From the NCBI RefSeq assembly GCF_029227915.1, contig NC_079877.1, positions 30,653,851-30,717,850 on the forward strand: a stretch of 64,000 nucleotides of DNA, read 5' to 3'. This document shows, one piece after another, positions 10,514 to 42,729 of the stretch. Position 1 is the first letter of the stretch, and each line of letters starts with the position of its first letter. The notes under the pieces were generated by a model. It was not told the DNA's origin. It ran no database searches and saw only the letters and a list, made by a program, of their open reading frames with translations. The position numbers and the translations under genes were made by a program. Source of the stretch: Hydractinia symbiolongicarpus. Taxonomy: Eukaryota; Cnidaria; Hydrozoa; Anthoathecata; Hydractiniidae.

Positions 10514-10721
10514 TTTTGATAATCTGAAATTTACAAAATATGTTATTGGTAATTTTATATGCATGTGTTCTCTCACGTTTCAAATTTTCATTGGATTAAA
10601 CTAAAAATGTCTGTGTTAAAGTTGTACTACACGACATTATAAATGTAAATACACAGCAACATTCAGGCCTGACAGTAAAAGAAAACCTACTGATTCTGGT
10701 AAATTTAGGCTTATGTTTGCA

Positions 10722-19700: not shown

Positions 19701-22700
19701 TAAACAGAAACGAAAGTATCGGGTTAATAGTTTGACTAGGTTTTCAGCTAGTAAGCAAACCTTCCCATGTGAAAAAAATGGAAAGCAAGTCCAGGTTTCT
19801 GTTAAAGACTATTTCCAGACTGAAAAAGCTGTTACTTTGAAGTAAGAACATGTTTTTGTTGTTAATTACATTGTGTGGTTTCACAAAAAAAGGTGTTGCA
19901 GTAGGTGTTTCTTTATTGTCATCAATTTTATAACCTTTTCTTGGTAGCATAATTAATTGTTTTATTTAAAATTAACTTATATTCCCTTTAATGGACCTTT
20001 TGTTTTGTGATTTTTAAACTCTGACTTCTGTTTTTTTTTAGATATCCTTCACTTCCCTGCCTCCATGTTGGTGATCCAAAGAAAAATATCTACATCCCAA
20101 TGGAATGTTGCAAAATTGTGAAGGGACAACAATGTAAAAAGAAGCTCAATGAAGATTTAGTAGCAAAGATGATTAAAATCACTGCAAAGAGACCTCATGA
20201 AAGAAAGAATACAATAATGCAAAAGGTTCATATAACGTTGTTGAGTTATAAAGAACAAATCCTCTTATAAGCATCCTCTTTTTAAAGGCTTCTTTTTATA
20301 ACTGCCTTGCTCCAATAAGAATCCTGAGTTAAAAAAATTAAGTGTCTTCCTTTTTTATTCACATCCCTTGCAGATTTTGACAAGCATGTCTTTTGCATAG
20401 TGGGAAATGCAGATGCAACTATCAAACTTTGTCAAGTGTAGGGAATTTATACTGTACAAAGGATGAAAAAAATATTATCTTAATGTATGATTTTCTTGAA
20501 GCCCTTTTGGTAGATAAATTATTCGCATAAAGTTACTAAAATATGGTCACACTTAAGTTGCGTTTAAATACACTATGAGTTATTCAATATATTATTCCTC
20601 TCTGTTGAGTTTGTTATGTCCAAGCTTCAGTCATCACCCATTCTATTTAAAAGTGAAACTTTACTGCATGATAATTATGTACAAGTTTAATTTTCACACT
20701 TAATAGAGGATTTTCTGGGGCATAAATGTATAGAAGTGATTCACAAAATTAACAACTGTCCTTCCTAGGTCAATGATGCTAACTTTCAGAATGATCCTTA
20801 TTTGAAAGGGTTTGGCATATCTGTTAATCCGGAAATGGAAAAGGTTGAAGCAAGAGTACTACCAACACCTGGCATTGTTTACGACAATGTAAGTAAAAGC
20901 ATCAACACCTTGCTTGGACCATGTTGCGAGAGGTGTGCGATATAAAAACTTTTGTCTTTTGTCGTCTTTTGGTAAATAAAACTAAAAAAAATAAATATAA
21001 TCATTGGCAAAAACGGAATATTATTTTAAGTACTGATATTCATGACCCATTGTCAGCGTTGTTTGCTTTTTAATGTCAAATATCGTTATCAGCAGCCCTT
21101 CAACTTTTTATAATATAATTTGCTTTAAATATTATGTCTTATATGAAATGGGCTGCTTGCTTAATATTTGTCAGAAAACTATAGAAATTTATTTTCTATA
21201 AGTTCTTTATGCTGGATAAATCACACATTTTACAAATGCACCCCAAATTAATATAATATATAATGATGTGATGATAATAACTCATATTCTAGCGGGAGTT
21301 AAAAATTGGATTTTTAGTAGCTACGGCATCTTCTTATATTTTCAGAATAAAAAGATGGTGCCATCTGGAGGTATGTATGTTTTTTAAGAAATAAAATGTC
21401 TAAGTTTCAAATTTTTTGTTGTATTTAGTCATTGTAAACCTTAGCACAAGTAATTGCAACTTTTTGATGCTAGGAATGCTAATTGTTTGACAACATTTAA
21501 CATTTTTTAAACATTATAGGAGCATGGAATATGAAAGGTATTAGATTGTATCGTGGAGCTAAAATAAATTGTTGGGGTCTTGTAGTTTACAGTTTCGGAA
21601 GACCTATGCAAGAAAATGCTATATTAAAGTTTCAAGATGAGTTAATACGAACAGCGTAAGTATAATAAAAATCAGATAAAAACTTTCATGACTTTTAATT
21701 TTGCACTTTAATCTTAAGGAATCATAAATAAAACAAGATAAGTATAATTGTAAAGATATAATGTTATTTTAAAGTCAATGTTCTTTTAAAGTGAACAAGA
21801 CGTATGATATACGTAAACAACCTCGCGAATAAAGTTTACAAAAAGCTGTCAATCAGATTGTGATTTCTGTTACGAAGTTAGACACGACATATTATGCTAT
21901 TCAGATAGGCTATAATATTTGTTACGCACTATGCAGTTATTTTTTCAAAATTGATATGTGATATCTTTTTGAACGGAAAACACTTCGAAGGTGAATCCCA
22001 GAAGAACAATGCAGAAAGCTGATGGTTGATAAGTCTTCGTTTCTCTCTTACTTAATGTCGTGGAAATTTTGCAAACTACTTTCCAGGCATTTGGGAGACC
22101 TTAAGTCTGCCTACATTCACTTTTGTAAACTTTGGTAGAGACACTTTTACTTTACCAGTTAGTTAAAAAATGATTTTGAACACTTATCTTATATAACAGC
22201 AAAAAAAAAAATAAAAATAATTACCAAGATGAGATTCGAACACACGACTACTCCTGTTTCGGTGCTCAGAGAGGCAAAAATTTCCATTCTTGTGGGACAC
22301 ATTTGCGTTTTAATACAAGCTCACAAGCTTGTAACTAACAGAGTATTTTTATTTCTTTGTTAATGTTTGTTTTTTTATTTTATTCTTTCAGACTTTAAAT
22401 TTTTTCTCTCACGAGCAAAAAAATGCTGTATGTAAACCAAAATATAAATATAAGCCTTATGTAAACCAAAAATAACTAAGGAACTGACTTTCAGACAGAA
22501 AATTCTGGACACCCATTCACCATCATGTATTACATAATAATTATAAAAAATTTGTAGTTCATCTATGGGTTTGACTATTGGGAAGCCATCATATCAACGA
22601 ATGGCAGATACTCGAGATTTGCCTGAAGTTATTGTGACAGAAGCTTTTCAAAAAGACAACAATATGGAGTTACTAGTGGTTATTCTACCTGGAAAAACAC

Positions 22701-25700
22701 CTTTTTATGGTAAAGAATTCATTTTATAATGATTGGAATATGTTAAACAAACAATTATTTGAATGGTGGTATTAAAACTAGCTTTTGGGCATGGTGATTT
22801 TTTTCACAATTATTTAATTAAAATTACTTCGTCATATTGTTATTGGAAGACATTTGCTTATGAAATGATGTAATACAATGTTTTAATCAAGTTATGATGT
22901 TTAGCTGAGAAGGTTATATCCTCTAAGGGTGTATACCTCTGTTACATTTTATGGTGTCAGCCAGCTAGTATAGTAGATAAAATGCTTTCTGCAGATTGAT
23001 GTAGTTGTAAAATGTATCATGTAGCAATTCTAGGTTCAGAAAAAAGCCCATCACTAAATGTACTCATGAAATTTTTTTATGAATCTTCCTTCCATGATAG
23101 GTGATTTGAAAAGAATTTGTGAAACAGAAAATGGTCATACCAGTATAAAAGTTGATAGCATTAAAAAACGCTTAGAAGAAAAAGGCTTATGTACACAGTG
23201 CATTCAAGTGAAAAATGCATTAAAATGCAATCCAATGACATTGGCACAGTTGTGTTTAAAAATAAATGCTAAGATGGGTGGAGTAAATAATGCGATTGAT
23301 GTTCAAAACAAACTGACGAGGTATGAAAAATATAAATTTAAATATATATCATACAGCTGACTGCAGTTTGATTTTTTGTATTTATTAAGTATTACTTAAA
23401 TTTTGGATTTTCCAGGCCTGTCAAAGTTTTTTGTGAACCAGTTATATTTCTTGGTGCTGATGTTACCCATCCTGCAGCTGGAGATAAAGAAAGTCCATCA
23501 ATTGCTGCTGTAAGCTATTTTAAAGTTCTGTACTAAATCTTGCTGCTTTTAAGCATAGGTTTAAGTTGATTTTGTCAACAGGATGTGTTTTCTACCAACA
23601 CTATTACACTTATATAGCTCTAGAGCTAAGATTTTTTTGTCATTTTTTTGTGATATAGTGTCCTACTCATTGTTGTCTCTCTTGAAATTTATGGCGGACA
23701 CCATCAATAGCAAACCCTCATTTCTTTACAAATCCATCTATGTAACCTGTCTCCATTATTTGATTAGTTTTTCAAGTTCTACATGATAAAAAGAACATGT
23801 TTAAATTTTTTTTTTAAGCATAAAGTCATCAAAACTACAAAACCTCATTATTATTTCCTTTGATTACCTACATAAATGGATTCTTCCACAAGGCTTATTA
23901 GCTAATATTTGTGATGATGAATAAATTCTAGCAATGAAGGATGAAGCCACATTAATTTTTTTCTATATTTCTACTTATATTTATACTCTAGGTTGTTGGA
24001 AGTGTGGATTTATTTCCAATAAGATATGCTGTCTCTGTTCGCATACAAAAGCATCGCGTAGTAAGTTCTTGTTTTTAAAGCTTAAAGTAGTTATTTTTAT
24101 TTATGGATTGTGTATATTGCAATATTCTATTTCTAGGAAGTTATCGAAGATTTAGAGAACATAACAAAAGAGTTATTGGTGCAATTTTATCGAGCTTGTA
24201 AGGCAAAACCTGCAAAAATTATAATGTTCAGAGATGGAGTATCGGAAGGACAGTTTCAACAGGTACAAATTCTAAAATGCAATGCTACTTTAAACTTTAA
24301 AAGGAAATTGTGGTGCTTTAGTTGTATTAAATGATATCACCGGATGTATTACATCAGATTTAAAGTTTTGAAACCTTTTGAAAATTTTACAAGTTGATCT
24401 TTTTTGATTTCAGACATTTCCTTGTTAAGGTAAATAAGTTGAAATCACGCCACAAAAATTCCCCATATTGTACACAATTGCTAAACAAATAAGGGGGCGA
24501 ATAAATAGTGGAAAATTAAAACATTTACTCTGCAAAAAATTGTTCAAATAACAAAAAAATCCCAATATATTTTAAAACATTTACAAATCTAACTTACATT
24601 GGCACTACTTTAGAATTTCAGATTAAATAGTCATCAAATAAATATTGTTCTAATCTTAACACTTTTAGCTCGTTTTGAATTATTTTGGAATAACAATTCG
24701 CTCCGTATGTTTTTACCAAACATTTTTTGGGTCTTTTTCTCTAAGGAACTTTAGCTACTTAGGCAAAAATCTTTGGACTAAATGCATAAATTCAATTGTT
24801 TATAAAAAGTTCATAACATGTATATTTGTAATTTTTAACAGGTCATGTTGAATGTTTATTGCTTGCACTTTTAGGTGTTGATGTACGAGATGACAGCAAT
24901 ACAAAAAGCTTGTATTTCTCTCGAAAAGGGGTACAAACCTGCAATCACTTTTATCATTGTTCAAAAAAGACACCATGCTCGGTTTTTTGTTGAAAATCCT
25001 AAAGATGCCGTAAGTAATTTACCATGACTACGTTAAGGAATTTGTGCGATAAGAAATTTTTGCGGAAATTAACCTTAAGAAATTTTTCAATAGTTCCCAA
25101 ATTTCTTCCGCAAAATAAATTAAAATTCCCATTTGTGAATGTAAATTCTACAAAAATTTTTCTAAAGTAATTATTTTAATTAAACTAAAATAGCTTTCTG
25201 ACCTATTTTTTAAAACTCGAAAAGTTAAAGACTGAATATATATATTAAAAAAATTCAAAAATGTCCACATTTTCTATGTGCCTTTCAGTTTCAACTCGTG
25301 AAATTCACAATTTTTGGACACCACTTTAATTTGTGCATCATGTTAATTTACAGTTTTTTTAGTTTTTTAGGTGTCTGTTATCGAAACTGGGAATATAGGG
25401 TTTAAATTAGCAAACCAATATGTCAGCATTGTTTTTTAAGAGGAAAATTGTTTAATTTGTAAATTTGCTATTTTTCTTCTTTTCTTTTTTTTACCCGAGT
25501 GCTTCTATTATAAACTGGAACAGTCTTACAATTATATTTTATTTGCAAAGTAAACTCCTGTTTAAGTACGAATTAAAAAAGAAATCTAGAAACCACTGTT
25601 GAAATAGCGTAAAGTTTTTACTTGTACTACCCTCTCTATGTTTTACAACACAGAAAGCAAAAGTGAAAGGGAAAGCTATACTTTGTATTTAGGATCGTAG

Positions 25701-27147
25701 TGGCAACTGCCCTCCTGGTACCACAATCGACAAGAATGTTTGTCATCCATCTGAATTTGATTACTATCAGTATAGTCATTCTGGAATACAGGTGCGTTTA
25801 TAATACCAGGGTGTTTCTTCAGATGCTTAGATTCATCCAAAAATTGTAGAAATTCTATTAAATTTTTGTATTTATTTGAGTCTTTGTGAATTCCTATTAA
25901 GATGAGTCTATAGAGGAGTACTAAATTATTATAAGCGACTAAGTTATGAATTAATGCAACCTATGGCTTTGTAGTAACATTAAGGAAAGTAGAAGTTATT
26001 TTGTCTCCATCTGTTTTTGATGTAATGAAATCTTCTTTCTTTGTTCTTGTTTGCATGCAGGGTACAAGTCGTCCAACTCACTATCACGTTCTTTGGGATG
26101 ATAATGACTTTACTGCTGATGAACTACAAGCATTGTCATTCATGTTGTGTCATTTGTATGTTAGATGTACTAGAAGTGTTTCTATTCCTGCTCCAGCTTA
26201 TTACGCACATCATGTGGCTTTTCGAGCTAGATATCACTTGCAAAGGGAGCTCGGAAGGTTTGATATCAATTTGCTTTATATTTTACATTTACTAAAATTT
26301 GAAAATGCACCCTTGACACGTCCAAAATTACTGGTTATTACTGAAAGAAAGGTGGCATTACAAATTTTGCAGCATAAATAGACTTTTTTCCATATACTGC
26401 ATTTTCCGTTATAGCGTAAAAAGCTCTCAAGTATTTTTGTTGTATAGGCAATTGGATAAAATCTCAAATTTTATTAAAGTTGGCATGCACTAACAGAAAG
26501 TCTTGTAAAATGGAAACAAGCCTTAAGTTTTTAAATGCGAATATTTTGAGAACAAAAGAGCGTTTTAAAGGATTTAAGTAAGATTTAAGTGAGCGGATGT
26601 CATTCCAGTTACAATAAACAACGCCTGTGTCACAAAAATGTTTCTTAAACTGAATGTTTTTTGTTAAACAGGAAAGTTCCATTATTCTATCTGGCTGTTT
26701 TTAGTATTGTATTTCCATTCCGCAATATCAAAATGATTCAGGAACTAATAGCTGTTGACAAGTAGGTCAACCCCACTTGGTATGATAACTGTGCATCAAC
26801 AAGGATCTGGTTTTAATAGAGCCACAAAAGAATTGCTTGTTAAATATTAAATACAGTGCATAAATGCCTTTACATGAATGTGTGTTTAAAACTTCGCTGT
26901 CACATGAAATGAATTTTTTGTTTCATGTTTTAAAAATTGACTAGCAGGTAGCTTTTCGTCCTATTGAAGTAAAGGAATTTGTGATTGTACTTAAATTATA
27001 ATATAAATCCATGCAACTGTATTTTATTATAGTGCTTCATCTGACAGCAGTGATTCTGGAGACGTAGTAGATAAAACGAAACTTTTGAACATCAAGGAAA
27101 TTGTCAAGCCGCATCGTAGATTATTAAGCATGATGTACTTTGTGTAG
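13734..27147 (+). CDS. Argonaute (AGO-clade), complete, catalytic tetrad intact
   Basis: Exons: 13734-13773, 15255-15617, 15691-15759, 16454-16728, 16871-16921, 17182-17309, 17570-17832, 19673-19841, 20042-20225, 20769-20888, 21346-21370, 21520-21655, 22558-22709, 23101-23320, 23416-23509, 23992-24060, 24137-24262, 24875-25009, 25693-25791, 26061-26257, 27033-27147. All join in phase to about 1009 residues. The N-terminus is an RG repeat, then a polyglutamine stretch, then a disordered Pro/Lys-rich segment. N, L1, PAZ, L2, MID and PIWI follow in standard order. The DEDH slicer residues are present: Asp in GADVTHP (23459-23461), Glu in KELL (24170-24172), Asp in FRDGV (24233-24235), His in YYAHH (26208-26210), at about residues 747, 798, 819 and 956. 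The protein ends in MMYFV, near the usual YFA. It should bind small RNAs and cleave matched targets. The first in-frame ATG was taken as the start. Confidence 0.93.
13970..14300 (-). mobile_element. LINE reverse-transcriptase C-terminal fragment joined to a SINE-like 3' body (intron 1 of AGO)
   Basis: Read on the minus strand, roughly 14300-14060 encodes a degenerate non-LTR retrotransposon segment with the recognisable pieces [18 protein letters not shown] and a VMLYGAQA-like motif, interrupted by stops. From about 14060 to 13970 the sequence matches the 3' body of the SINE at 48.0 kb (CATCTAAGCCATGG and ACTCTAGGACTCTCC blocks). This is an inactive fragment in an intron, opposite to AGO transcription. 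Confidence 0.65.
15255..15350 (+). repeat. CAG/CAA polyglutamine-coding tract in AGO
   Basis: The 5' end of the second AGO coding exon is a run of CAA and CAG codons broken by a few Arg, Pro and Lys codons, giving about 20 Gln. Mixed codons make it less slippage-prone than pure CAG. Gln- and Arg/Gly-rich N-termini are common in animal and plant Argonautes and are usually disordered. Confidence 0.85.
15790..16330 (+). repeat. Dispersed ~700-bp repeat family, copy A (intron of AGO)
   Basis: The copy starts with a GATAAGGCCCnTGGAnAAATCCACT block and continues with GCTGACGTCA, GAAACGCTGAT, a duplicated TTGGTCCCAGATGTCCCTAA and TTATTTnGCCTCAAA. It matches the order of the two copies in the later AGO intron (18059-18752 and 18757-19505). 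No open frame. Confidence 0.75.
18059..19505 (+). repeat. Two tandem copies of the ~700-bp repeat family (copies B and C)
   Basis: Copy B, about 18059-18752, and copy C, about 18757-19505, run head to tail inside the 1.8-kb AGO intron. Both open with GATAAnGCCnGTGGA and close with GAACTGGCGTATTATTATATAG. Each contains several GACGTCA or TGACGTCA motifs. Copy C has a small internal duplication around TTTCGGTTACTTCAAAGG. A short related fragment (GCCCGTGGAAAAATCCACGG) occurs at 11417-11436. The superfamily is not clear because neither tRNA boxes nor clear TIRs are seen. Confidence 0.8.
22225..22300 (-). repeat. Possible tRNA-derived SINE head in an AGO intron
   Basis: On the minus strand the segment contains GTTCGAATCTC, a good RNA polymerase III B-box, preceded by a region that could be tRNA-like. 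The A-box is not clear and no tail was defined, so this is a tentative call. Confidence 0.35.
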
Positions 27148-29385
27148 GGGTGATCTGTTACATTTATTTTGTCTTACTTTCAATGGGCAATTTTAAATGT
27201 AACTATAATTAAAGCTTAGATTTATAATGCTTGATTTCCATATCAAATTATTTTACTGGCATTTTTGTCCTAAATAACTTTATCTTTGAGTTGCATGTTC
27301 AATGAATGTTTTATGGGTTTTTACTTCTCAAAAATTAAAAAATATATACTGAATATTGCCTATTTCTAATTATGACAAATAAAATCAATTTATTTTACAG
27401 AGTATATATTATTTTATTAAATTTTAATATTATGAATTATCTTTTTCTTTTATATGTAAATATATATTTTAAATGATAATTTTCCATGTTTATTATTGCT
27501 GAGCATGTTCTCCTGTGTGGTGTGTGTGTAACCTGTATCTTATACCTTAAAGAAAGTTATTTTTTTGTTTGTGTATTTATGGAAAAAAAAACACACTTTT
27601 TATAGTAACATAAAATAAGACTTTGCACTCAAAATTAATTTTTGTGAAAACTAATTCTTACAGGTCAGAAGGTCTTCATGCAGAAATGACTTTTTCTTCT
27701 ATTTGGGAATCAGAATTTAATGTTTCAAAATCATTCTGTAAGCTAACCAATCAATAATGGCTGTACTGAAGTAATTTGACACATTTTTAATTTTGATACT
27801 GTCATTTATTCGTAATGAATACTCAATTAGTTGGGATATAGAAATAGTCATAGAACAGAAGTCTTTTTTTTATTTTTCTTGTCCTATTCATTTTCGTCTT
27901 GCATAGTTTATATACTCATAATAAGATGTCCAATTGTTATTATTCAAGCATAGCAAAGCATACCTGAAAGTTGAACAGAAATCAGAAATAAAGTGAAGAA
28001 TTTATAAATAGTTAGATTAAACATTAAGAGATTTATTTTTTAAAAACAAAAAAACTATTATTAAATTGAGGGAAACCAAAGTTTTTGCTCTGCTTTTAGA
28101 AAAAGTGGTTATGTGTAATAACTTCTGGTTGGTGTAAATATAGCCTAAAGTAGTTAAAGGGTAGGTTAATACTTAATTGGTGTGTTTCTTTTAAAGGTTT
28201 TATTGTGCCCTGGTTTTTTTCATTGTGTGTTTTTAAGAAAAGCTGTATCATCTGGTTTAGCTCTGTTTTTCCAAAAGCTTTCTTATCATGGTCTAGTTTC
28301 ACTTTGTGTCTTTTCTGAAAGCTGTTGCACCATGAAACAGTTATTACCAGTTTGTGTGTATTGACTTTCTTTAGTTTGTTTCTATTAGTGCAGTTTTCTC
28401 TGAAGTTGCTTTACTACCTGGTTTCTATGTGTGTGTTTTTAAGTTGAATAATAACGGATTTCAGAGAAAAAGTTTGCATTTTTTAAGTGAAACATGTTTC
28501 AACGTATGCCATCATCAGTCTACATAAAGGTTGGTCAAATAACACATTAACAATACATTTGTAATTACAAAATGTTTATTGTATTTTTAATAATTTATTT
28601 TACGACCATCTTTCATGTAGTAAAATTTAAAAATCATGAAATAAGATATTGGGAAACATGTATTACTAAAAAAAGTTTTTTTTTACTTAAAATTATTATT
28701 CAACATGTGCTGTTTTAATCATTTAAATAACAATTAGTTCTACCAAGCAACATGAAAAACACAGTTGCTATACAATCTGATTTGCTTTTTTCTGTTCTGT
28801 ATTTTATCGTTTAGTGTTCTATTCACGTGTTTGGAATGTTTAATTTGTTGGCTTTTCAATTATCTTTTGTTTACCTTTCATAAAAGGATGTTATCTGTCT
28901 TTTGTGGTTTATAAATTATTTAAGATTTTTTAATGTCTTTCATATCATTGGCTATGAAAACAATTATGTTTTTGGTGCCATTGTTTTGGATGTTTCATGC
29001 TTTCAGGTTTGTCATCTTGGGTAGTAGTTGGTAATCTGATGAAAAAAATGGCGCTTTTAATTTCAACGATAATGTTTAACGATGGGAATATATACTGTCG
29101 TGTTTTGAATGGGTTTTGGATGTAATACAATGTCAAGATTTTGTTCATATAAAAACAGTGTTCCATTAGATCAAAGAAAGCTAGAAAAAATGTGAATGAA
29201 AGAAATGAAAGAAAGTAAAAGAGAGAAACAGTAGAGTTCAGTTTTTCTAGAAAACACCAGGGAAAACACCAGTTTTATGTGGTATATATGTATATATTTT
29301 TTGGTATTTAAATCTTTATATTCTCATGTTGATGTTTAATGTGTTTTTTTAGAAATAAATTTAAAACAACAACCACAGTCAGATA
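27148..29385 (+). other. Spacer between the two Argonaute genes, with AGO 3' UTR
   Basis: An AATAAA at about 27378 is a plausible AGO poly(A) signal. The rest is AT-rich with no exon I can support. It must hold the promoter and any 5' UTR exon of the second Argonaute gene. An acceptor-like TTTTTTTTAG ends at 29352, 33 bases before that gene's ATG. Confidence 0.55.
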
Positions 29386-30858
29386 ATGACAGAAAAAGTT
29401 CATGAGTATGCATGCAAATTAACGTGTTATTGTGTGACAGCCACTTATGCTGTGCAAGAAGTTATTCGATGTTTGTCCAAGCAATGTGACGTATATAAAA
29501 ACCTCACAGATGTTGATCCTGAAAGGGCATTTTCATCAGTAATATCAGCATGTAAGGAATCTTTGGGTTATGTTAAATCAATCAAATACAGTAATAACAA
29601 GGATAAGTTATATGCATCAAAAGGTGTTGTTAAAGAGGAAGTCAATGTAAATGCTTTTGATATAACTGCACTCATAGACTTTCTAGAAAATTTACCAGCT
29701 TTTCCTTTGTGTAAAATAAAGTATATTGCGGCGGATGTAACACATGTGAAACACGGTGATGTAAGCTGCGGAGATGTTAAAAAGGTATGTTGTGCAATAT
29801 GTTTACATTGCACAAAATGTAAAAAAGATTGTAAATTTATAGAATTATGTTCAAAGTTAAGGATTATTCAAACTCTACGGAATTATTATTCTCATAAAAC
29901 TTATGAAAATTATGCAGAAATTGAAGCAGAATTAAAGAATGAGCCACCAGGTCCACTAGCAACAGAATGGAAGAAGAACCTGAAGTCTTGGGAAGAAGCA
30001 ATAAAATGGTTATTAGGTTTTTTAAAGAAACATTCCCATATAACAGAAGAAACTTATGGAACTAAGGTATTCGAAGTTGACATAGTAAAAAGGTCGAAAA
30101 AAGAAGTTTATTGGAATTATTTCAACAAAGCACCCGAGCTAAAGCTTCTTGTAAATAATATTCCTAATAAGCGATTAGAGTTTAGTGTTGAATGTGATTC
30201 AACATCGCCCAATTTAAAGAAGGTTAAAGATTTGAACTCCCAACCTTCCAAGATTTTTCAAAGCATTGTCGAAATGAAGGCCTCAGACTTGTTGGAAAAA
30301 CAATTATGTTTAGAAAACTCGTCAGAAAAATATCGTATTGATATGGATACCATGAAGTTTACTAATAATGGCCAACAGGAAAATCTTATGTGTGTTTGTG
30401 CCACATTTCATGTTAATGGTAACATACCTGATAGCTTTAATAAAATGACATCGAAAGAACCTGAAAAATTAAGGCTTGATCTTACTAATTTATTCCAATC
30501 AGAGCTTTGTAAAATATTTCAAGCAGTTGTTAAAGTGACTTGCGTAGGGTGGGAGTTTCATTCAATTCACGTCCATTTTGAGATAAATTTCATGAATTCG
30601 GAAATCCAAGCCTTAAAATCTGTCATCCAAAACGCACTTTCAGATATAATTAAAATTTCACAAGTGGGAAGCATTTTGAAAAATTATGATTTAGAGAATT
30701 GTGATGTTGATATTTCATTTAAAGAATTTGAAAGTTGTGTGTATAGTCAAAGGCTTACTGTTGGATTCACCATAACTATCTATGATGATGGTCTCATTGA
30801 TACAGTTGAAAAAATATTACCAAGCATTGAAACAGAACTACACAGTGAAATTAGCAAG
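29386..30858 (+). other. HEPN-bearing first coding exon of the HEPN-Argonaute gene
   Basis: One 1473-nt exon in phase 0 encodes residues 1-491. FDITALIDFLENL (residues 91-103) matches the signature preceding the catalytic helix in DZIP3-like HEPN domains. RNYYSH at residues 165-170 (29878-29895) is the HEPN R-N-x3-H ribonuclease motif. A Trp-containing helix follows (about 190-215), also typical of the family. Between the two HEPN signatures lies a cysteine-rich insertion. Residues about 340-491 contain two stretches with alternating amphipathic strands and helices. The exon has no recognisable Argonaute sequence itself. A GTATGT donor at 30859 joins it to 31449 in frame. Confidence 0.82.
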
Positions 30859-33800
30859 GTATGTAACCATTCAGCATTTTTTTTAAATTATATCTTCGTA
30901 TTTTTTATATGGCCTCTTTTTGTGTTTTTAAAAGTACAAATTGCCTCATCTTACCTATATTATTAAGGTTGCCATTTTTGATAAATGCAACCACAAACTT
31001 TGCGTTGAATATCCACCTACTAGTGTTTTTTTTGTTTTGTTTTTTACAGTAACCACATTATTTGATCATTATTCTCAAATCTTTGTGATATTTCGTGCTA
31101 TGACTTTTTACTTTTGTAAGAGATTACTGCTTCCTTAAAACAAAACAGGCTATATAACATCTTTTATACTTGGCACAATCTAAAACCTTATATTTGGGTA
31201 GCAATGTTGAGCTACAAATAGTGCAATTCTCATCCATTCACCACAACATTTAGACACCAGTCAATTCCATGGTGACAGGTGACAGGTTTACTATTTCAAG
31301 GATAACTACTTTGCTAGTATCTTTATTTAATAATTTTTCATCTACCCATGTCCTTTCTGTTTGTGTTTTATGGATGCTGATATTTGCGACATTTACCAGT
31401 GTTTGAAAAATGGTATGACTTTTAAAGCTTCTTTTTATTTTTATTTAGAAAATTGCCAAATCATCCTATACTCAGACGGAAGAGAAATTTGAAGAGTACA
31501 TTATTACAGAAAAACCATCACAAAGTGTTTTTAGCCATTGCAAACTAGGAAAAGGTATGTTCTTAAAAAATTTATACTTTAATAAACTTTTGGAAGAGAA
31601 AAAAAAGTAATTGTGCTTTGTTAGCATTTTATGCTGAAGTAAACATTCAAACAAATTTTATGCACACCTCAAATTGCGGTTCATGCAATTATGATGATAC
31701 TGGTGATTCATACTGGAAAAATTAATTATAAAATAAAATCTTTCTCTGTAAAAACTTTCTCCTTTAAAATAGACAAGCCTCATTTCTGACATTCTTATTT
31801 AGGTACTATTTTGTCCTCAGTCGTTGAAGAGAAATATAATATACAGCCAACAATTAAAAATAGAAAAGCCATCCTAAATGAAGATATTTACAGTTACGAT
31901 GTCGATATTGACGACATTTACAGAAGCAAGTCAAACAATATTGTAGCTGCAAAATTAGCTCTTCAATATCCAATGGAATTTCCAAGTGAACCTGTCTGTG
32001 ATGGGGATTTTTTATATACAAAGCATCCGATTTCATCTTCAAAGGTAAAGTTCGTTTTCTAATTTTTAGTACCATAAAGAAAGAAACTTTTGTAAGTCAA
32101 AAACATGGTGAAATGAACAGAAATAACTTTCACAAATGGCCTACTTTAAAATTTTTCACAATAAATAACTGTCCCAAATGATCATTTCAATGATGCTCTG
32201 CGAGAATTAACTTTCATGATAATGTGTAGGTGTTAATTAGTATTTGTTAAAACAGGTTTGAAAAGGTACAACAATTAAAAAACACAATTTTTAATCGATT
32301 CAAAGAACAATTATTACATGAAACATTGAACATTAAGGATCCCTCCAAAAATTAGGAGAGTAAACAAGAACCCATGGGAATTAACTTTCGGAAATAGCAA
32401 ATCTTGAGATGTTTTCAGGGCATAAACTTTCACGATTAGGCGTCTGATACGTGTACTAACTTAAATTCTTTGTTCTTTTAGATTGTGCTTTCGGTTACTG
32501 ATGAAGATGGAACACTGCACCAGGTGTGTTTTCATTAGAGTTATTTAAGGACTACAAAAAAAAGTGACTAAATAATGTAAAGACCAAAAATGTATAAAGT
32601 GATGAAATATTTTTAAGTAATGCGTATTTTTTCCAATGCAAATTTTTGTCTGACTTAGAAAGAAAATAACACAAGTAAAAAAGCAGACACATGTTGTGAG
32701 ATTAATGTGTTTAAACAAAAGATAAAATACAGTTTCTTTGTTTTTTAAAAAAGTACATAATTAGTAATTGCAATTGCTCATCTGTTACATGATTTCGAAA
32801 ATGAGGTTACATTATCACCAAATTTTATTCCATAGAAATGTCTTTTTGTGAATCTTTTTTTCCTTAAAATGGCATGTTATCAAAAGGTTCACAAAGCCAT
32901 TTTGGTACAAAGAAGGTATGCATTTAGCAATGTTTTATAATTTAGGTTGTAATAAAATTACGTGGAAAAGTTAACCTTGTAGATCTGAAAAAGGCTGCTT
33001 CGTCGATGGTGAAGGAGCCTGGAATCAAAGGTGTTTTAAATCAAGCAAGAAAGTTATGGTGCGAAATTATTTTGTTTCACATAGCTGTATTAAAAATTGC
33101 TTCTTTATTTTCTTTTAAGTTCTTACTGTATGTTGCTGACTATTTCTATGAGATATTTGTACTTCATAAGGTGACCTTCCGTTTAATACAAATTTTAAAA
33201 GTAATTTTTGTTAGTATTGCTTGCTGAGAAGGACAGCCATAAAAGTGTCAAACTTAAGTTATTTTTTAGCTGCTTTAACATTTTTTATTTAGCTTGTAGT
33301 TCAAATAGGAAAATTAAACAGAAATAATAAAATTGTATGGATTTAAGTTCTATACCTTTTTACAATTTAAAAGTAGTTTCTGTGATGTTGTGTATTATGT
33401 ACCGCCATTATCAATCTTAAGTGTAATACTACTGAAAAGCATTACCTCTGTTTTTTCATGTTATTTTACATTGCATTTTTTAGTTACAATCCCATCTCCA
33501 TGACCTACGTAACACATTCGGGTGCTGTTAATGTCAGTATGATATGGAGTCCGTGGTCTGACTTTTCGTCAACTGCCTTCATTAAACACTGGGAAATGAA
33601 TTTTTTGTCAAGAGAAGTGTTCCACAAAAGTGTATCTGTGATTGAATATTTGCATGAATTAACAGGATTTGATGCAACAAAATCTCCAAGAAAGTTAACA
33701 GAAAAAGAGCGAAAACTTCTGTTGAATCATATAAAAGGTTAGCATCTAAAGTTGTTAAGTGGTGTGATATTCTTTTAAAATACTATTTGTTGTTATCTTT

Positions 33801-36800
33801 CGTTCAACAAAATTTAATTGTCAACCTTGTTGCTTTATCTTTAGACTTTGAAGTAAAGCTTACCTATGATGGAACACAATTTTATGTCAATGATGTTATG
33901 ACGAAGGGACCAAAAGAACTGACATTTGAAAAGAAGCAGCCTGATGGAATAAAAAGGAAATATACCATTGAAGAATACTTTAAACATGAAAAACAAACCA
34001 CTTTAAAGTAAAAATTATTATAATAAAAATCCGCAGATCAGTTTAGCCACTTTGTTTTCACATTCTCCTTCTATACCTTAAATCTTAAAGAACTGTTATA
34101 GGCAATCTAGTTCAGGGCGTCTATCGGACTTTAAAAACTTTAAATATAAAAATTATAACATCTGTCTGATTAGGGGACATTGTCTTGTAGCAACTTTTTC
34201 TGATTGCATCTTTTCGAATATTCCTCTTCAGGACCATGGAATTAGTAAAAAGATTACAAACAAGTTAGCGTGTGCACACGTTTTTGTGTTTTTAGATATC
34301 CTGATCTCCCATGTCTGCACGTTGGAAGTGTTCACAGGAACATATACATTCCCATGGAATTATGTAACCTCATGAGTACAGAAAAAAGATTAATAGTTCC
34401 GTACAAATGTTTGGAAAGAACAGATGATGTATGTGTAACTATGATTTATAATATTTAACTATTCAACTTGTAAAAGTATCTGTTGTTCAGTATTACAATA
34501 AAAGACATTTTCGTTCTATCTTCTAATAACTCTTTAAACTCTTTTTTTGTGTCAATTATTTAAACCTGTTTTGCATTATGTGGTTAAAAAAGGCTTTATG
34601 TTAAAAACAGATATTTTAATTTTCAGAATTTCAAACATCAAGTGAATGGTAAGTGAATTTGTCGGTAATGTGAAAAAAAAAGTTATGGATTATAATAAAC
34701 TAAAATAAATAAATGTTTCTCACTTTAGAGATGCTACAGGACCTTGAACAAAACGCTACTGTGAGTTCATGGGGGTTGGTGTTTCATAACATAGAAGCAC
34801 CCATACCTGAAGAAGACGTGGAGAAATTTCAAACAGAGCTAATAAAATCTAGGTACGGATGAAACGTAAATGTTGTTTATAAAAAGTATAGCCGAATCAT
34901 TCAAAATAGTTTTATGTCACCATCTACAAATAATACTAATGCAACATATTTCTTCGACTTGCTCTTGACAGGTTTTTAATTTTTAATTATTAATTGCAGA
35001 ATTAAAATTTTGACTGAGATTTTTATGCTTTTTAGCGCATCTGTTGGGTTAAAAATCGGGCCACCATTGTTTTGTGAGAAATTTAGCGAAAATGATACAG
35101 CAGAGAGAGTTGTTTGTGAAGCATTTGAAAGAGATAGGAAGATTGAGTTCCTTCTGGTGGTATTAAATGGGAGATCAAAATTTTATGGTGAGTACAGACA
35201 TCACACTTAACAATAGTATGATGTTAAGCATTTATTTATATAATTACAGAGGATCGAAATTCATAAGAATTAACCAATCAGGAACAAGTGGAGACCACCA
35301 TTTTACTTTGATGGAAGAAGTATCTCCCAAAACATTGCGTATTAAACTATCATGTTTAAGAAATGATAAACGTTCATCAATAATATAAATACTGTACAGA
35401 CAAACTGAAAAATATCATCAAATATAAATAGCGTCAAATATTTAGTTTTTGTTTTGTGGTAAAACATTTTAAAACAGCAAGTTTTTCACTATCTCTGTCT
35501 GTGAAGACAATCAGGCTGCCTTTGCCCTGTACGCAATGTTATCAAAACTGATTTTTTTTGTCCTCTGAATTTTTGAGTGGTCAGAATAACCATGTTGTCG
35601 TTGGTGTGTCTAGAAGGTTAGTTTACCAATTTATTCCTTTAGGGAACTTGAAAAACATATGCGAGAGTGAGCTTGGATATAACGTTATTGTTGATGGCGA
35701 GATCAAGTCTGTATTTAAAGAACGGGGTCTGGTTACCCAGGGTGTTACACTTCAGAATTTTCAAAAACACAATAAAGAGTTGGTTGATAATTTGTCCATT
35801 CAGTTGCGCGAAAAGATAGGTGCTGTTTTGACTGAAATTGTTGCAGAAAAACCTGAGAGGTGGGCTGACATTCTGGATAATGTGGACTAGATAATACACA
35901 AATTTTTAATAATAATTGTATCTTCCTTTTTTGTGATAAAGGACGATATTTACAACGATTTACCTTCTATATGCCAAGAAGGAATAAATGAAAGTCTGAA
36001 TTTTCCATAGACTAACAGCTTGTTTTTATTATTTGATTTTTTATTTTTTTTACCTTTCGCAAGCTGTTAAATGTCTCGTAAGTGAGTACTGAATACAATT
36101 TTTTTCAAATTTCACTTTCACTTATTGTTTGTTTATGTTTTTTTAGACCATTACACTTATTCAAGGAACCTGTTATTTTCATTGGTGCTAGTCTAACTTT
36201 TCAGGCTTCAGGAGAATGTTTTGCAGCAGTAAGTTAACAACAACAAGATAGAGTGTCAACAGTAAAGTGTACATTTTCGAATACACAGTTTAATTTTTAT
36301 TAAATGAATGACTGCTTTAAAAAACCCTTCCAGTGCAACTTCTAAAAAGTGAATACTCCATAATTTTTTCTTGCATGAACATTACTTTATAAAATAAAAT
36401 CGACCTTCATAAAGTAAATACAAGTTGACATTCTTTTATTATCTCAATTTGCTCTAAAAATTTTTTACAACAATAAATATCCGTTTTTATATGGCTACTT
36501 ATACATATATATACGATAGTATCTTGTTTTTAATAGCGAAAGTATCTTGTTTTTGTTAATTTTTTAAGTGGGTAGTCATTTTACATCTTTATTTTTCAGG
36601 TTGTTGGTAGTGTGGATCACCTTCCAATGCGATATGAAGCAAGTGTATTTCTGCAAACCAATGAAAAAGTAAGTTCTTTTTTTGTAAATGAAACACAATG
36701 TTAAAAATTTTTGCTGTACAATATTTTAACCTCGTAAACTGTCGATTGCAACGTATTATCAGATATGTTACGTATCATAAATTTACAGAAAAATTTAAGT

Positions 36801-39800
36801 GTCCTCTAGTTCTAAATATTTTTGCATTTGCTTCACAGTAGCAATGTTAGTATACTGCAAATATTCTACATTTTTGTTGTTAAATATTTTTTTATTTTAA
36901 TCGAAACTTGTCATAAGATGTAGACGCTGCATAAACTATCTATTACAAACGCACCACTATGAAATATCGGAAATAGTGAAACACACAATTCTGCAACTTC
37001 TGCTAAGCATATTCAATCTAGCATGGAAAGTGGAAAGCCATGCTAATGAAAATGTTGATGTTGATCTGTTTTTTGTGTTCTGCTCTAATTGGACATCGGA
37101 ATTTTTTGAGGAAAATATTTATTAAAAAAATTTAGAGTACCCAAAACCGATAAACCATATCCAGCCCCTCATTCACTGTGGAAAGTCACCTATCGAAAAA
37201 AATATATTTGGTTCGTTGTTTTTGTGACCTGCTGTTGTTGAACATAATGTTATGTAGAAATAACTATAAAAATTAACAACTTGTCAGAAGGCATGTTTTG
37301 CTTAATGGGCAACTTTGCAATATCATCCAGAAAAGTCAATTGAGGAATTTAAGGAGCGATTAATAACACATAATAAGAATATCTATACTTGTTAGTAACA
37401 TAGCTGTAATTAAGTCTATATCAAATGTTTTTTTTTCTGCCTATCAAGTTGTTAAATTTTTTGCTAAGCAAATGCAATCTATCATTGAAAGTGGAAATCT
37501 ACTCTAATAAAAATGTTGATGTTGATCCGTGTTCTGCTCTTTTTTTTGATGAAAATATTTATTAATAAAGAAATTTAAGGCACAAGACCGATTGTTTTTT
37601 TTTTAATAATTTTTAAGGAAATAATTTCTGATAACGAGAAATACAAAAATACAGAAGTATATATTGATTTGTTGTTTTTGTAACTAATAACTTCGCAATA
37701 TTAACCAGAAAAGTCAATTATATCTATACAATAAAAATGCGAGATATTTTCTTGGTTTTAAGTATAAAAATATCAAGGGGAATAAATACATTTAAAGAAG
37801 TTATTAAAAAAATTAGGCTCAAAAGACCGCAATGTGTTAAGAAAATCTTAAAAAAAAATTAAGAAAATTACCAGGTACAAATGTCGACTTAGTCAGTTTT
37901 TTTTGTTAATCTGGTCTTTTTTTTTGTTAATCTGGTCTAAACACAACTCAGTTCTACAACTTGATATTACCTTGTTCTTTATGTGGGCCTCATAAAATAA
38001 GTTAAGAGATTCTGGCTAAATTTAAGAAGATTAGGGCTGAGGTAAAAAGTAGCTTTCCTATAAAAAAGTACATGTGATAACTTACAATGTCCCAATAACA
38101 GTTATAACAGAAGAAAATAGCAGTGTGTTTTAGATACGAGATAAGTTTTTGTGTTAATTCAAGTAAACCGAGGATGAGAAAAAAATAGGTTTATTTTCTT
38201 ATATGAAAAGGGGCGCATAATATCTTAGAGAACCCCAATAAAAGTTATGAGAGAAGAAATCACACAGTCGCGTTGAAAACAATATTGGAACGACATTTTC
38301 CATGTCAATTTATTTAATATTATTACGTGTAGTGTAGCGATATCCGTAACTTGCTTTTTAGTTTTAACATAAACTTCTTCCAAACGATATAAGCTGGTTT
38401 TTTATGCCTGCTGATATTACCAAATTTTGCTAAAGGCAGTGGCACTGGCGAACCACTAGTCCAAAACCTATGAAGCAGAATCACGGCCATAATTCAACTG
38501 AAAGTCCTCAAATTAATTTTTAGATTCAATGTTCAACCCCGTAATTGGGCGCTCTTTCAAACCATTACAATATTTAGTAAAAGACGTATTTTCTATTTAT
38601 TTTCAAAATACATTTGCTTTTTTTTGGTCATACTGTATAGCAAACTATCAGTGGTTGGTTTCAACAGAAAAATTTTTGCATGTTGACGGGGGCGAAATGT
38701 GTTTATAAGCAATACTTGTTTATCAAACAAGAACGTAGAAATAGCATTTATTTTATGTAAGATATGCAAAACCACAACTATGTGCAATACTACTAGCTTC
38801 CGTTATAAAATTTATTTGTACCTTCAGTACAAAAATTGTAAAATATTTAAACGATATGGTTAAAGTTTAAAGTAATGAATGTTTATTTGTTGAATGTTAT
38901 CTTTGATGTACAAATTTCTGTTCCTCTTTTTGTTTCTGCGAGAGATTCTCATTTAGCATGGTTAGAAAAAGGCGATAATAAAAATAAAAATAAGCAACTT
39001 TTCGCGCCTTAGATGCTGGACGTTTTAAATTGACTTAATTCCACTGGTGTGTTAAGCAAGTTTTCGAAACAGTATGACTGTTAAAGCTTTCTTGTTATTG
39101 TTATTTTAGGCTGTTATCCTCGATCTTTTAAAAGCAACAAAAAACTGCTTGTTAAGTTTTTGGAGAAACCTAGGAGTAAAGCCATCAAAACTTATATATT
39201 ATCGCCTTCGTGTGCACGACAGAGAAATACCAACGGTAGCAATGTTCAGGTTTTTTTTTAAATTCATCTCAATAAATTTACCTTCTGCGAAATAACAAGT
39301 TGGTTGGTGATATATGTTTTTACCCATTGAATTTCACATGAATATTAATACTTACTTATCATGATCATTATTCATACCAGCAGTCGTTTCTTAGCATCTA
39401 ATTTATGATGTCATAGTTAGGCTTAATTACCTAAATATTGGATATGATTCTTTAAACCTTTATAAGAAACCAACTTGTTTTTTTGTGGTAGGTAAGCTTA
39501 AAACAATGTCCTTCAAAATCAATGTTTTCAAGACCAAAAATTTTCCCACTTTTATATTGTGTCCAACTTGAAGATTTAAGGCCAAGGTTGGACCAAGTAT
39601 TATTCTGTAAAGGCGCTGTCTCTATTCAGCAGCCTCAATGGAAAAGTGTGGATGAAATAAGAGAGAAAAGTGAAAGTTTGAGAGAGGAGAATGGAAAATA
39701 GTAATGAAACAGTCACCTAAAAGATTTGGTCGTTGTCGCGGAATTTAGTTCAGAAAATTGGTTAGAAAATATGAGAAAAACCAAACGAAAAATTAAAAAG

Positions 39801-42729
39801 TAAACTGGTTGAAACGAGTGTACATTCTAGGGGGTTTGTATGAAGAGGGTTACGTTTCCGTAAGATATCCTTGGTCACACCTTCGTACCCTGAATAGAAC
39901 ATGTAAACTCGTTGCCATAGAGATAGAAATAGAGCTCCATGCACTAACTAAACATACACCAATGGATTTGTTACTTTGAGAAGTGCGAATTAGCGATCTT
40001 CTTGAAATGTTGAGAAGACTAAAGGAAATTGTTATCAAAACTATTCAGACAGGCATGATGTTATATATAACTGTCGTGGCCATGGAGAAATTTGTTTTAC
40101 AAGAATACCCTGTTTCACATTCGTATAAAGAAATAAAACGTTGAATATCTTTAGTAGTGTATTGATTGGAAGTGTCCAGGACGAATATAAGTGCGACAGA
40201 AGTTAAATGCTGCAGCACTGAGCAAGGCTATCAACAGGCTTTTTGGTGTAAAAAACACCACACAGATATTTTAAGACAGTTCAAATATGTGGTTTGTTGT
40301 TTAAACAAAGAAAAGAGGTTGTATGTAGTAAGGGTTTTGTTACAACTTTAATCAAAAGTTAGGATCTACTCGATAAAGAATAGATGGATTGTTGTTTGGC
40401 GTTTGTTATACGATGTGTTTGTTACCATCATTGCTATAACGAGAGTGTTTTAGTGGAGTCAGATTCTGACTCCAACATACCTAACATCTGCTGCGTGTCT
40501 TCGTAAATAATTTTATGTTTTATCTTGTTATTGCTTTTTTTTTGTAAAGACATAATATCGAGAAAATTGTTTAACTACCCGAAGTATAACTTTTTAAATG
40601 CTATTATTTTATTGTCATGTTTTCTTTTTTTCCAGGTTTTAAACGCAGAGTTGTATGCGCTTCAAAAGGCATGCACTGGCCTACATCCAGACTATCAACC
40701 AGGGATTACGTTCATATCAGTTAAAAGAAAACCATTTCTTGTTGACGAGGTATGAAAGACTTACTGTGTTTTACACATTGTTGTGATCTCAAATCAGACA
40801 TAACATTTCGTTAGTAGGAATTAAATTATTTCTAACTAACAGCTAACGTTATGGTTGAAAAATGATTTGGATGTTTTTGCTGATTTGCAGCAGAAATCTT
40901 GAAATTAGTTTGTGTAAGATTTATACTAAAAAAAGTAAAGGAATATTTACTTAAAGTTCCAAAAATAAAAGATAAAGTAAAGAAATAATGGTAGTTTGTG
41001 TTGCCATTAAAACGCTCAGTGTTTTTGTTTTCGTTTTAGTTTACTGTTACTTTAAAAATTAAAAAAAGACCTGTTAACCAACTTTTTAAGCTGGATAATA
41101 GAAGCCCAACATCATTTTATACCTTGGTTTTCCTTTAAATATCATATTGGGGATCCAAATATAACTAGAAATAACAAAAAAGTCCCCTACATATTTTGGA
41201 AAATTATGATTTTTTCGATATAAGCACTTACCTTGGTTTCAACTCAAGTTTTCTGATAAAATAAAATTTCTTTTTCAACTAGCTAGCTAGCTTTTTAAAA
41301 TTTTGCATACAGACAGACCGGTTTATTGTACATAAAACCCAATTATTAAACCGGGTATTAAATACCTTCTTAATGCTAGTAACATAGCATTTTTTTTAAC
41401 AAATACATCTCCTCGTGTTGTCTCTGTTTCCTCGTCAAAACAATCTGTCGATTTACTGATATTTAATGCATCCAATGAACGTAGCTTATTTTTCCCGCCA
41501 AAAAGAATACTAAAGGAAAATTTTTCATTTTTTAGAAAATAAAAAAAAAAGTAGCAAATTCATGATAAAAAATTTATTATTCATAAACAGGTTGTCTACA
41601 CGTCTATGTTGTTCTAAAGTGTATATAATTTCTTGCATCTTGACCTTTTAAGTGGTTTGTTTATTACACGCCATTCTTTAAAAATTGCGGAGATTGAGCT
41701 TATTGAATCGTTTCGTATTTAAAGATGCTTTTTTAAATCTTTTTAGAAGAAAATTCTGAACGTACCTGGATATTGTCACGCTGGATTCAAGGTACCTAAG
41801 ATCTTTATAGTAATTTATAGAGACTTTCCTGTCATAAAAGTGTTTCAGAAAGTTCTGTCTCGTTGTTTTGAACATAAGTGAAGATGTATGAAATATTTGT
41901 ATCAATATTATCAGAATAAAAATAATTTTATATTCGTTGATTCACAAAGGCACTGGTAAATAAGCTAATCAGCTTTATTTCCTGGTAAAATTTTACATTC
42001 TGCAGTCGGTGCATAGGAAATACAAGTGATGCCTATAATTTGTTAGGTTTTGACTGAAAGTATTATTTTAGGAAAGCCGACCATTCATTTACCACATTTT
42101 ATGGGACGACAGTGGTTTCGCAATTGAAGATTTGAAAAAGTTATCTATTTTTCTCTGTCATGCTTCTCCATGCTATTATTATGCTCATCTGGTCAGCGAA
42201 AGAATGAAGTATTTCATTACGACAAAGAGGTAAAATTGTTATAACAAATTATTGCTTTTATAACATGTATTGCGAAACATCTGTGGCGTTTTTTAACGTT
42301 TCATACCGTGAATACTGTAATAAACACCCTTCCCCCTAAAAATCTTAAACATTAAAAAACGTTCAAGCATTTAAAAGAGCATTTAGCTACGGTATACTCT
42401 AAAATGTTAATTACTAAAATAAAAACAGACAAATTCTATGATTAGCATAAACTCTTGTTCATCTTTTTAACTGGCGGAGAAAGGGCTCTGTGAAGGAGAT
42501 TTCTGACCTTCCCCACTGTACATTTTGTTATTTCAGAAAAAATAAACCATCTGAGGGTACACGGGGCAGTGGAAAAATGTCGTATGACATCACAGAGCGT
42601 ATGAAACAACACCCAGCGTTAGGGAACAAATTTTTGTATACGAGAAAGAATGAAGACGGGGATTCATGCAGCATTGTCACCAAATCGTTGAATGCAACAA
42701 AATCGAAGGACTCAGCTGGAATATTTTAA
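29386..42729 (+). CDS. HEPN-Argonaute fusion protein with a degenerate (slicer-dead) PIWI domain
   Basis: Exons: 29386-30858, 31449-31554, 31803-32044, 32482-32523, 32946-33058, 33484-33737, 33845-34007, 34296-34428, 34627-34648, 34729-34852, 35036-35187, 35643-35859, 36147-36228, 36600-36668, 39110-39235, 40636-40749, 42072-42229, 42537-42729. All phases agree, giving about 1260 residues. Residues 1-215 are a DZIP3-type HEPN domain, about 215-520 an alpha/beta region of unknown fold, and the rest is N, L1, PAZ, a shortened L2, MID and PIWI. PIWI catalytic positions read Ser (GASLTF), Asn, Leu and His. MID keeps the Tyr, Lys and Gln that hold the guide 5' phosphate. Exon lengths match the upstream AGO (152, 69 and 126 nt are identical). 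The ATG is the first after an in-frame stop at 29362-29364. A role as an RNA-guided HEPN ribonuclease is inference. Confidence 0.85.
29788..29832 (+). other. Cysteine cluster inserted in the HEPN domain
   Basis: Residues 135-149 read CCAICLHCTKCKKDC: six Cys and one His in 15 residues, between the FDI helix and the catalytic RNYYSH helix. The spacing (CxxC-x2-C-x2-C-x3-C) could hold a zinc ion. I do not know it from other DZIP3-type HEPN domains. Confidence 0.7.
36147..42229 (+). other. Degenerate PIWI domain of the HEPN-Argonaute
   Basis: Five exons (36147-36228, 36600-36668, 39110-39235, 40636-40749, 42072-42229) align to the PIWI exons of the neighbouring AGO. The first Asp is replaced by Ser (36190-36192), the Glu finger by Asn (39143-39145), the second Asp by Leu (39206-39208); only His remains (42186-42188). 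The exon equivalent to AGO 25693-25791 is absent, as is the [13 protein letters not shown] segment before the final catalytic His. Strand-forming hydrophobics (EPVIFIGA, SKLIYYR, GITFISV, YHILWDD) are kept, so the RNase H fold may survive without slicing. Confidence 0.8.
37004..37720 (+). repeat. Direct duplication within the large HEPN-Argonaute intron
   Basis: Segments 37004-37330 and 37457-37720 share TGCTAAGCAnAT, GAAAGTGGAAA, AAAATGTTGATGTTGATC, GTGTTCTGCTCT, GAAAATATTTATTAA and CCAGAAAAGTCAATT in the same order. The copies are diverged by indels. They lie in the 2.4-kb intron between 36668 and 39110, which also holds other AT-rich low-complexity DNA. Confidence 0.75.

Follow-up and report, generated by a model that had tools for sequence, protein, structure and literature searches.

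This account concerns a gene in a 64,000-nucleotide stretch of DNA (the window) from the hydrozoan Hydractinia symbiolongicarpus, in which an Argonaute is preceded by a 491-residue N-terminal module. Judged from its sequence, this is one gene, and the joining of the module to the Argonaute is real at the genome level. The architecture is new, its building blocks are known, and the gene is both intact and unusual. The combination of a HEPN-type module with a slicer-dead Argonaute in a single protein suggests a small-RNA-guided sensor that would activate an N-terminal ribonuclease (RNase); this proposal is tentative, and we place it slightly short of probable.

Structure of the fusion gene

The window corresponds to positions 30653851-30717850 of contig C3 in the genome searched here, a 480.9-Mb assembly of 76 contigs. 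Exons were called from open frames, consensus splice sites and agreement of phase. Nineteen exons on the forward (+) strand, spanning 29386-42729, join in frame to give 1275 codons followed by a TAA stop. All 18 acceptors (exons 2-19) are AG and all 18 donors (exons 1-18) are GT, phases are consistent throughout, and the joined frame is uninterrupted by stops or frameshifts, with every splice site intact. The encoded protein runs from the 491-residue module through a linker to an Argonaute with PAZ and PIWI domains.

Exon 1 (29386-30858) is an open frame of 491 codons that begins with ATG and ends at a phase-0 donor (exonic AAG, intronic gtatgt). It contains the FDITALIDFL and RNYYSH motifs that a preliminary description of this DNA had pointed out. 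Exon 2 (31449-31554) encodes a 35-residue linker, entered in phase 0 and left in phase 1, and exon 3 (31803-32044) begins the Argonaute N domain according to the gene model and the alignment to AGO2. The junctions between these three exons, described earlier as consistent in phase, are confirmed by GT-AG sites and the open frame. The same join of exons 1, 2 and 3 was made by an independent gene prediction, isoform X2 of LOC130636751 (1233 amino acids), which is the sole match (100% identity) of a database search with residues 1-900. It equals the 19-exon model letter for letter, apart from lacking exactly exon 15 (39110-39235), which is 42 residues long. Skipping this exon in frame removes a core PIWI stretch together with two lost catalytic positions, which would be unexpected in a PIWI fold that works.

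A rival explanation is that two adjacent genes, one of HEPN type and the other an Argonaute duplicate, have been merged by gene prediction, their real transcripts being separate. The Argonaute exons do resemble a tandem AGO copy that once would have had its own 5' end, and intron 2 carries two AATAAA hexamers. However, the frame of exon 1 is open up to a consensus donor, and the independent pipeline arrived at the same join. In addition, intron 1 contains neither AATAAA nor ATTAAA, and the frames leading into exons 2 and 3 are open back to a stop with no ATG within; a separate Argonaute start or a separate end of exon 1 is therefore unlikely. The seven-member module family introduced below points the same way: a phase-0 GT lies at most one codon from the window donor in four of the seven (the window copy, L038, L040 and L041), although those of L038, L040 and L041 are weak donors, judged by eye. 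In L042 the corresponding GT comes three codons later, in L043 it is at another place, and for L044 no position was assigned; nothing convincing emerged when a linker exon resembling exon 2 was sought in the module paralogs. Taken together, the two-gene explanation is highly improbable, and the claim that module and Argonaute belong to one gene is supported.

A strong acceptor-like site, tgtgtttttttag (window 29340-29386), ends at 29352, 33 bases 5' of the start codon. It could point to a further, non-coding 5' exon upstream of it or be a spliced-leader acceptor.

The N-terminal module and its probable relation to HEPN domains

The module has two parts. Residues 1 to about 225 form a divergent HEPN-like domain with FDIT at 91-94, a Cys-rich insert at about 135-149 and R165-N-Y-Y-S-H170; residues from about 225 to 491 are a further part common to the family, perhaps of alpha/beta type according to a low-confidence model. 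It is not unique to the fusion gene. A genome search with exon 1 returned nine matches, namely exon 1 itself and eight stretches in six other loci on contigs C6, C4, C15, C2, C13 and C12 (E-values between 1e-45 and 4e-4, apart from a minor stretch at 0.66). A second search, started from L041 (C15), found no further module locus in the genome.

An FDIT-like stretch is common to all seven aligned members. The R-N-x3-H motif occurs in six of the seven, L040 having K-D-x3-H; the Cys-rich insert is likewise present in six (absent from L041). Six also share the long C-terminal half, the exception being L044, which has little of it. Columns are on average 35% identical, and D92, H170 and L307 are the only invariant ones. 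A chance occurrence of RNYYSH was considered and dismissed, as five of the six paralogs have R-N-x3-H and none lacks the His.

RNYYSH has the form of the HEPN motif R-x4-6-H with a polar residue after the Arg, as set out in the passages on this motif in PMC3710099. According to the same passages, the motif in HEPN domains predicts RNase activity, and the RNases that carry it cut RNA independently of metal and leave a 2',3'-cyclic end; the His is needed and, in some cases, the Arg.

The relationship to HEPN domains runs through the paralog family. L041 matches the Pfam family HEPN_DZIP3 (PF18738) with an E-value of 1.1e-4 and 22.4 bits (DUF4145: 0.043). For comparisons within the genome, 20 HEPN_DZIP3 loci were fetched and 15 used; L014, L019, L022, L026 and L027 were left out, having no usable frame by the motif filter. 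A profile of these 15 places L041 (E 5.9e-5) ahead of all 309 decoys, the best of which reached 0.29. In profile-profile comparison, the module family scores 34.1 against the same-genome HEPN domains, and none of 50 shuffles exceeds 20.3; with L041 as master the score rises to 41.4. Without L041, and with its gap columns cut, it is 33.2, and the highest of 100 column shuffles is again 20.3. The corresponding P-values for family against the 15 HEPN domains are 5.5e-5 with L041 and 8.1e-4 without it.

This picture is complicated by a number of results that weigh against a HEPN identity of the module. Searches of Pfam, NCBIfam and PDB sequences with exon 1 gave no credible HEPN match; neither exon 1 nor its pieces matched HEPN_DZIP3 above the 27-bit cutoff, and exon 1 is absent among the listed matches to PF18738, of which the genome has at least 108. 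The L041 match itself lies under this curated cutoff, and the other five of the six paralogs have no Pfam HEPN match. Against the profile of 15 HEPN domains, the window exon ranks among the decoys (E 1.4); adding L041 to the profile brings it to 2.9e-5, which is circular. A hidden Markov model (HMM) of the family, run against the 15 HEPN domains, gives no clear separation, with a best E-value of 0.045 and the best decoy at 0.15. Used alone in hhalign, the window sequence scores 17.9 (P 0.094), which is not significant. Structure models made without an alignment, for exon 1 and its 226-residue piece, have mean predicted local distance difference test (pLDDT) values of 41.2 and 40.3 and are unusable. 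A Pfam match of exon 1 to an MTPAP-like family was dismissed, since its 13-16 bits lie under the cutoff of 27.

The earlier assignment to DZIP3-type HEPN domains thus survives in part. The HMM search of exon 1 that had been suggested as its check came out negative in Pfam, whereas the paralog family supports the assignment through L041, the profile comparisons and R-N-x3-H. HEPN ancestry of the module appears very probable on these comparisons; retention of RNase activity is, by a slight inclination, the favoured reading.

L041 (G000:C15:9792390-9793721) bridges to HEPN_DZIP3 without a Cys-rich insert. For this reason, the insert may have been gained later, perhaps as a zinc-binding switch.

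The paralogs have genomic partners of other kinds. On the same strand and within 10 kb downstream, L042 (C2) is followed by a NACHT exon (75.4 bits), and L038 (C6) and L044 (C12) by ankyrin exons (97.3 and 69.6 bits, respectively); L044 additionally has a downstream P-loop frame, below cutoff. No domain was recognised downstream of L040, L041 and L043; there, a Pfam scan covered one frame (in L056), and the others were read by eye. From their position, the NACHT and ankyrin exons would be spliced to the module exons in front of them. As such exons follow the module in three of the six paralogs, the Argonaute of the fusion occupies a sensor's place. This fits the published picture of HEPN fusions: according to PMC8260672, HEPN-NACHT fusions are common in cnidarians, and in several of these, Clytia hemisphaerica included, no other non-LRR domain accompanies NACHT as often as DZIP3-like HEPN. 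A table in PMC3710099 gives NACHT, ankyrin, CARD, DEATH and LRR as animal fusion partners of the DZIP3-like HEPN family. Among the eight HEPN_DZIP3 loci whose longest frames were inspected, two (L001 and L008) have a P-loop, GGVGKT, following HEPN in the same frame.

An alternative to an RNase is that the module is a HEPN-derived or HEPN-like part for oligomerisation or binding, devoid of RNase activity, and that the dead Argonaute is a regulator, which would sequester microRNAs or small interfering RNAs from slicing AGOs or repress by recruitment. The drift of the motif to K-D-x3-H in L040 and the strong divergence of the window domain are in keeping with this, and precedents exist for both halves: HEPN domains without the motif are noted in the relevant passages of PMC3710099, and slicer-dead AGOs of bilaterians in those of PMC7713132. 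Against it, six of the seven members, the window copy among them, retain R, N and H despite the low mean identity, and H170 is among the three invariant columns. We regard this alternative as rather unlikely, but as a serious one.

The Argonaute half, its tandem neighbour and the surroundings

In the joined protein, Pfam recognises Piwi (96.4 bits) and PAZ (62.8 bits), both above cutoff, and MID at 16.6 bits, below its cutoff of 27.5. Matches to solved structures comprise 33 distinct sequences at an E-value of 0.001 or less; the best, named Protein argonaute-2, reaches 8.3e-61 over two stretches. Among these structure-sequence matches, the fusion is closer to AGO than to PIWI proteins (Piwi-like protein 2: 2.6e-4). 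After exon 3, the N domain and linker L1 are encoded by exons 4-5 (32482-32523 and 32946-33058), the PAZ region by exons 6-8 (33484-33737, 33845-34007 and 34296-34428), and a shortened linker L2 with the start of MID by exons 9-11 (34627-34648, 34729-34852 and 35036-35187). Exon 12 (35643-35859) belongs to MID, and exons 13 (36147-36228), 14 (36600-36668), 15, 16 (40636-40749) and 17-18 (41747-41791 and 42072-42229) to PIWI. Exon 19 (42537-42729) encodes the C-terminal tail and the TAA stop.

The catalytic tetrad of human AGO2, which we take to be D597, E637, D669 and H807, is replaced by S, A, L and H in the alignment; three of the four residues are lost and only the His is kept, so that DEDH is not present. 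The first loss lies in exon 13, where GADVTH of slicers reads GASLTF. The catalytic Glu position is the first residue of exon 15, an Ala, and the second catalytic Asp position, in the same exon, is a Leu (YYRLRVHD). The His and the equivalent of R812 are in exons 17-18. The two chains compared have Ala at the third catalytic position, where AGO2 itself presumably has Asp; an Asp is seen there in the tandem AGO (FRDGVSE). The dead PIWI domain reported in the preliminary description is borne out at the D597, E637 and D669 equivalents.

At the positions which, as we assume, contact the guide 5'-phosphate in AGO2 (Y529, K533, Q545, K566, K570 and R812), the fusion reads Y, K, Q, Q, K and R. Five of the six are kept, including the Q545 and K570 equivalents in exon 12, and K566, in the same exon, is replaced by Q. 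Given this together with the altered tetrad, slicing has very likely been lost and guide binding is plausible.

Some features weigh against a working sensor. Linker L2, which falls between the aligned parts, is about 60 residues shorter than in AGO2, and PIWI lacks two stretches close to its end; these changes could mean impaired handling of guide or target. Exon 9 has only 22 bases, and the tandem AGO has a long exon there. Moreover, no fusion ortholog was found in other species, in a protein database search that requires shared 5-residue words and is insensitive. With alignment, the database search returned two Argonautes besides the gene's own prediction (E 1.5e-5, from Avena sativa, and 2.9e-3), and exon 1 alone found nothing among 5745 candidates in a search of the same insensitive kind.

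The fusion might be a decaying duplicate, an accident of duplication whose protein has no selected function. The loss of three catalytic residues, the stretches missing from L2 and PIWI, and the predicted isoform without a PIWI exon would all agree with decay. Set against these are 1275 codons in 19 exons without stop, frameshift or broken splice site, the mostly kept 5'-phosphate contacts and the kept RNxxxH; decay is unlikely.

Directly upstream, on the same strand, lies a canonical AGO gene (15236-27144, limits by eye) with intact GADVTHP, FRDG and YYAH and with intron phases matching those of exons 3-18. Splice sites in the expected phases were found for these exons; this is a weak test, as such sites often arise by chance. 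When the best splice sites were picked blind to phase, they had the exon phase of the fusion at 15 of the 16 acceptors and at 14 of the 16 donors (29 of 32 ends), the disagreeing three being the exon 9 donor, the exon 13 acceptor and the exon 16 donor. The phase-blind agreement upholds a tandem duplication; by its exon pattern, the fusion's Argonaute half is a duplicate of the upstream AGO.

Elsewhere in the genome, a search with the isoform X2 protein gave Argonaute-type matches on C3 (the fusion and its tandem neighbour) and C12 only, and the fusion accordingly appears to be single-copy. In the genome search for the Piwi family, single PIWI exons of the fusion were not picked up, and only the joined protein matched. 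In the second AGO, on C12, GADVTH and FYRDG are intact; two genes with a DVYHD motif, on C13 and C15, were judged by eye to be of PIWI type. Most of the coding part of the C12 gene (L045, G000:C12:23352290-23354309) lies in one open frame of 944 codons, in contrast to the many exons of the AGO in the window; perhaps it is an old retrocopy or has lost its introns.

Two other features of the window, both on the - strand, were noted by eye. At 54730-60556, a 995-codon open frame and a RhoGAP-like stretch further along perhaps form one gene; at 9842-10579, a 246-codon frame resembles an hnRNP-type protein with two RNA recognition motifs.

Proposed mechanism and comparison with known systems

The structure of the fusion gene is established from sequence; for the order of evolutionary events, we infer the following. 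A canonical AGO gene would have been duplicated in tandem, the 5' exons of the duplicate replaced by a module exon that the genome also puts before NACHT and ankyrin exons, and the catalytic PIWI residues lost. In the resulting protein, the Argonaute half would load a small RNA, and pairing with a target RNA would alter the fold or gather several copies. Because it no longer destroys its target, a guide-loaded Argonaute could stay bound and signal. The HEPN domains would then dimerise and cut RNA through R165, N166 and H170, with little sequence specificity. In the NLR-like copies, it is presumably the sensor that oligomerises the effector; here, an Argonaute would take the place of the NACHT of a HEPN-NLR, the outcome being an alarm against viruses or transposons. 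Under this scheme the protein would be expressed as one chain, load a guide, pair with a target, dimerise through HEPN, cut RNA and act in defence; an alarm mechanism of this kind is plausible. It is conceivable, if somewhat doubtful, that the protein is an RNA-guided, target-activated HEPN RNase, an NLR-type effector fused to a slicer-dead Argonaute, through which small RNAs trigger general RNA decay or cell death where plain slicing would otherwise occur. The same reserve applies to viewing it as what Cas13, or an inactive prokaryotic Argonaute with its HEPN effector, would correspond to functionally in an animal.

The usual view of animal Argonautes is that they slice or serve as platforms on which silencing complexes form. 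If true, a dead Argonaute that carries an effector of its own would mean that animals, like prokaryotes, have made an alarm of the guide-binding scaffold, and it would bear on cnidarian defence against RNA viruses. Hydractinia is tractable in the laboratory, which makes the idea directly testable: injection of short hairpin RNA and messenger RNA is in use (PMC11811051), and CRISPR knock-in has been reported (PMC6122657).

No animal HEPN-Argonaute was found in the open-access literature searched, which is not proof of absence, and no paper was found by the locus name LOC130636751 in open-access full text. A review of cnidarian small RNAs mentions neither HEPN nor such a fusion, and the Argonaute passage of the 2013 HEPN survey concerns RNA interference in general (PMC3710099). 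Animal AGOs, including slicer-dead ones, share PAZ-MID-PIWI with the fusion (PMC7713132). The fusion differs from them in its extra N-terminal 491-residue module and in the loss of three catalytic residues, in a cnidarian. According to PMC7713132, both Nematostella AGOs have intact catalytic sites, and AGO duplication in cnidarians is stated to have proceeded without loss of catalysis; the loss seen here contrasts with that statement.

Among known systems, the cnidarian receptors combining HEPN_DZIP3 and NACHT have, like the fusion, a DZIP3-type HEPN-like module before a sensor (PMC8260672). In the fusion, the sensor is an Argonaute instead, and the HEPN-like subfamily is divergent, mostly with a Cys-rich insert, and has a long C-terminal part. 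On the prokaryotic side, short Argonautes lack PAZ. Those of SPARTA type resemble the proposal in that an Argonaute is the sensor for a separate effector activity, a TIR NADase (PMC11156904); they differ in having a TIR effector and another domain order. Cas13, as in the mechanism proposed here, uses an RNA guide and target-induced RNA cutting by HEPN, but with another guide-binding part, CRISPR guides and two HEPN domains per chain (PMC5303251).

The convergence with short prokaryotic Argonautes that was suggested earlier is refined here, in that the nearest prokaryotic parallel found is with inactive long-B Argonautes that have a HEPN neighbour. According to PMC10954474, the conserved gene downstream of these Argonautes can encode a HEPN, TIR, transmembrane or PD-(D/E)XK effector, which its authors propose to be under the control of the Argonaute. 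Like the fusion with its HEPN-like module, these systems pair a dead PIWI with an associated HEPN effector; unlike it, they are prokaryotic, lie outside the eukaryotic AGO clade and encode the effector, joined to an alpha-helical domain, in a gene of its own next to that of the Argonaute.

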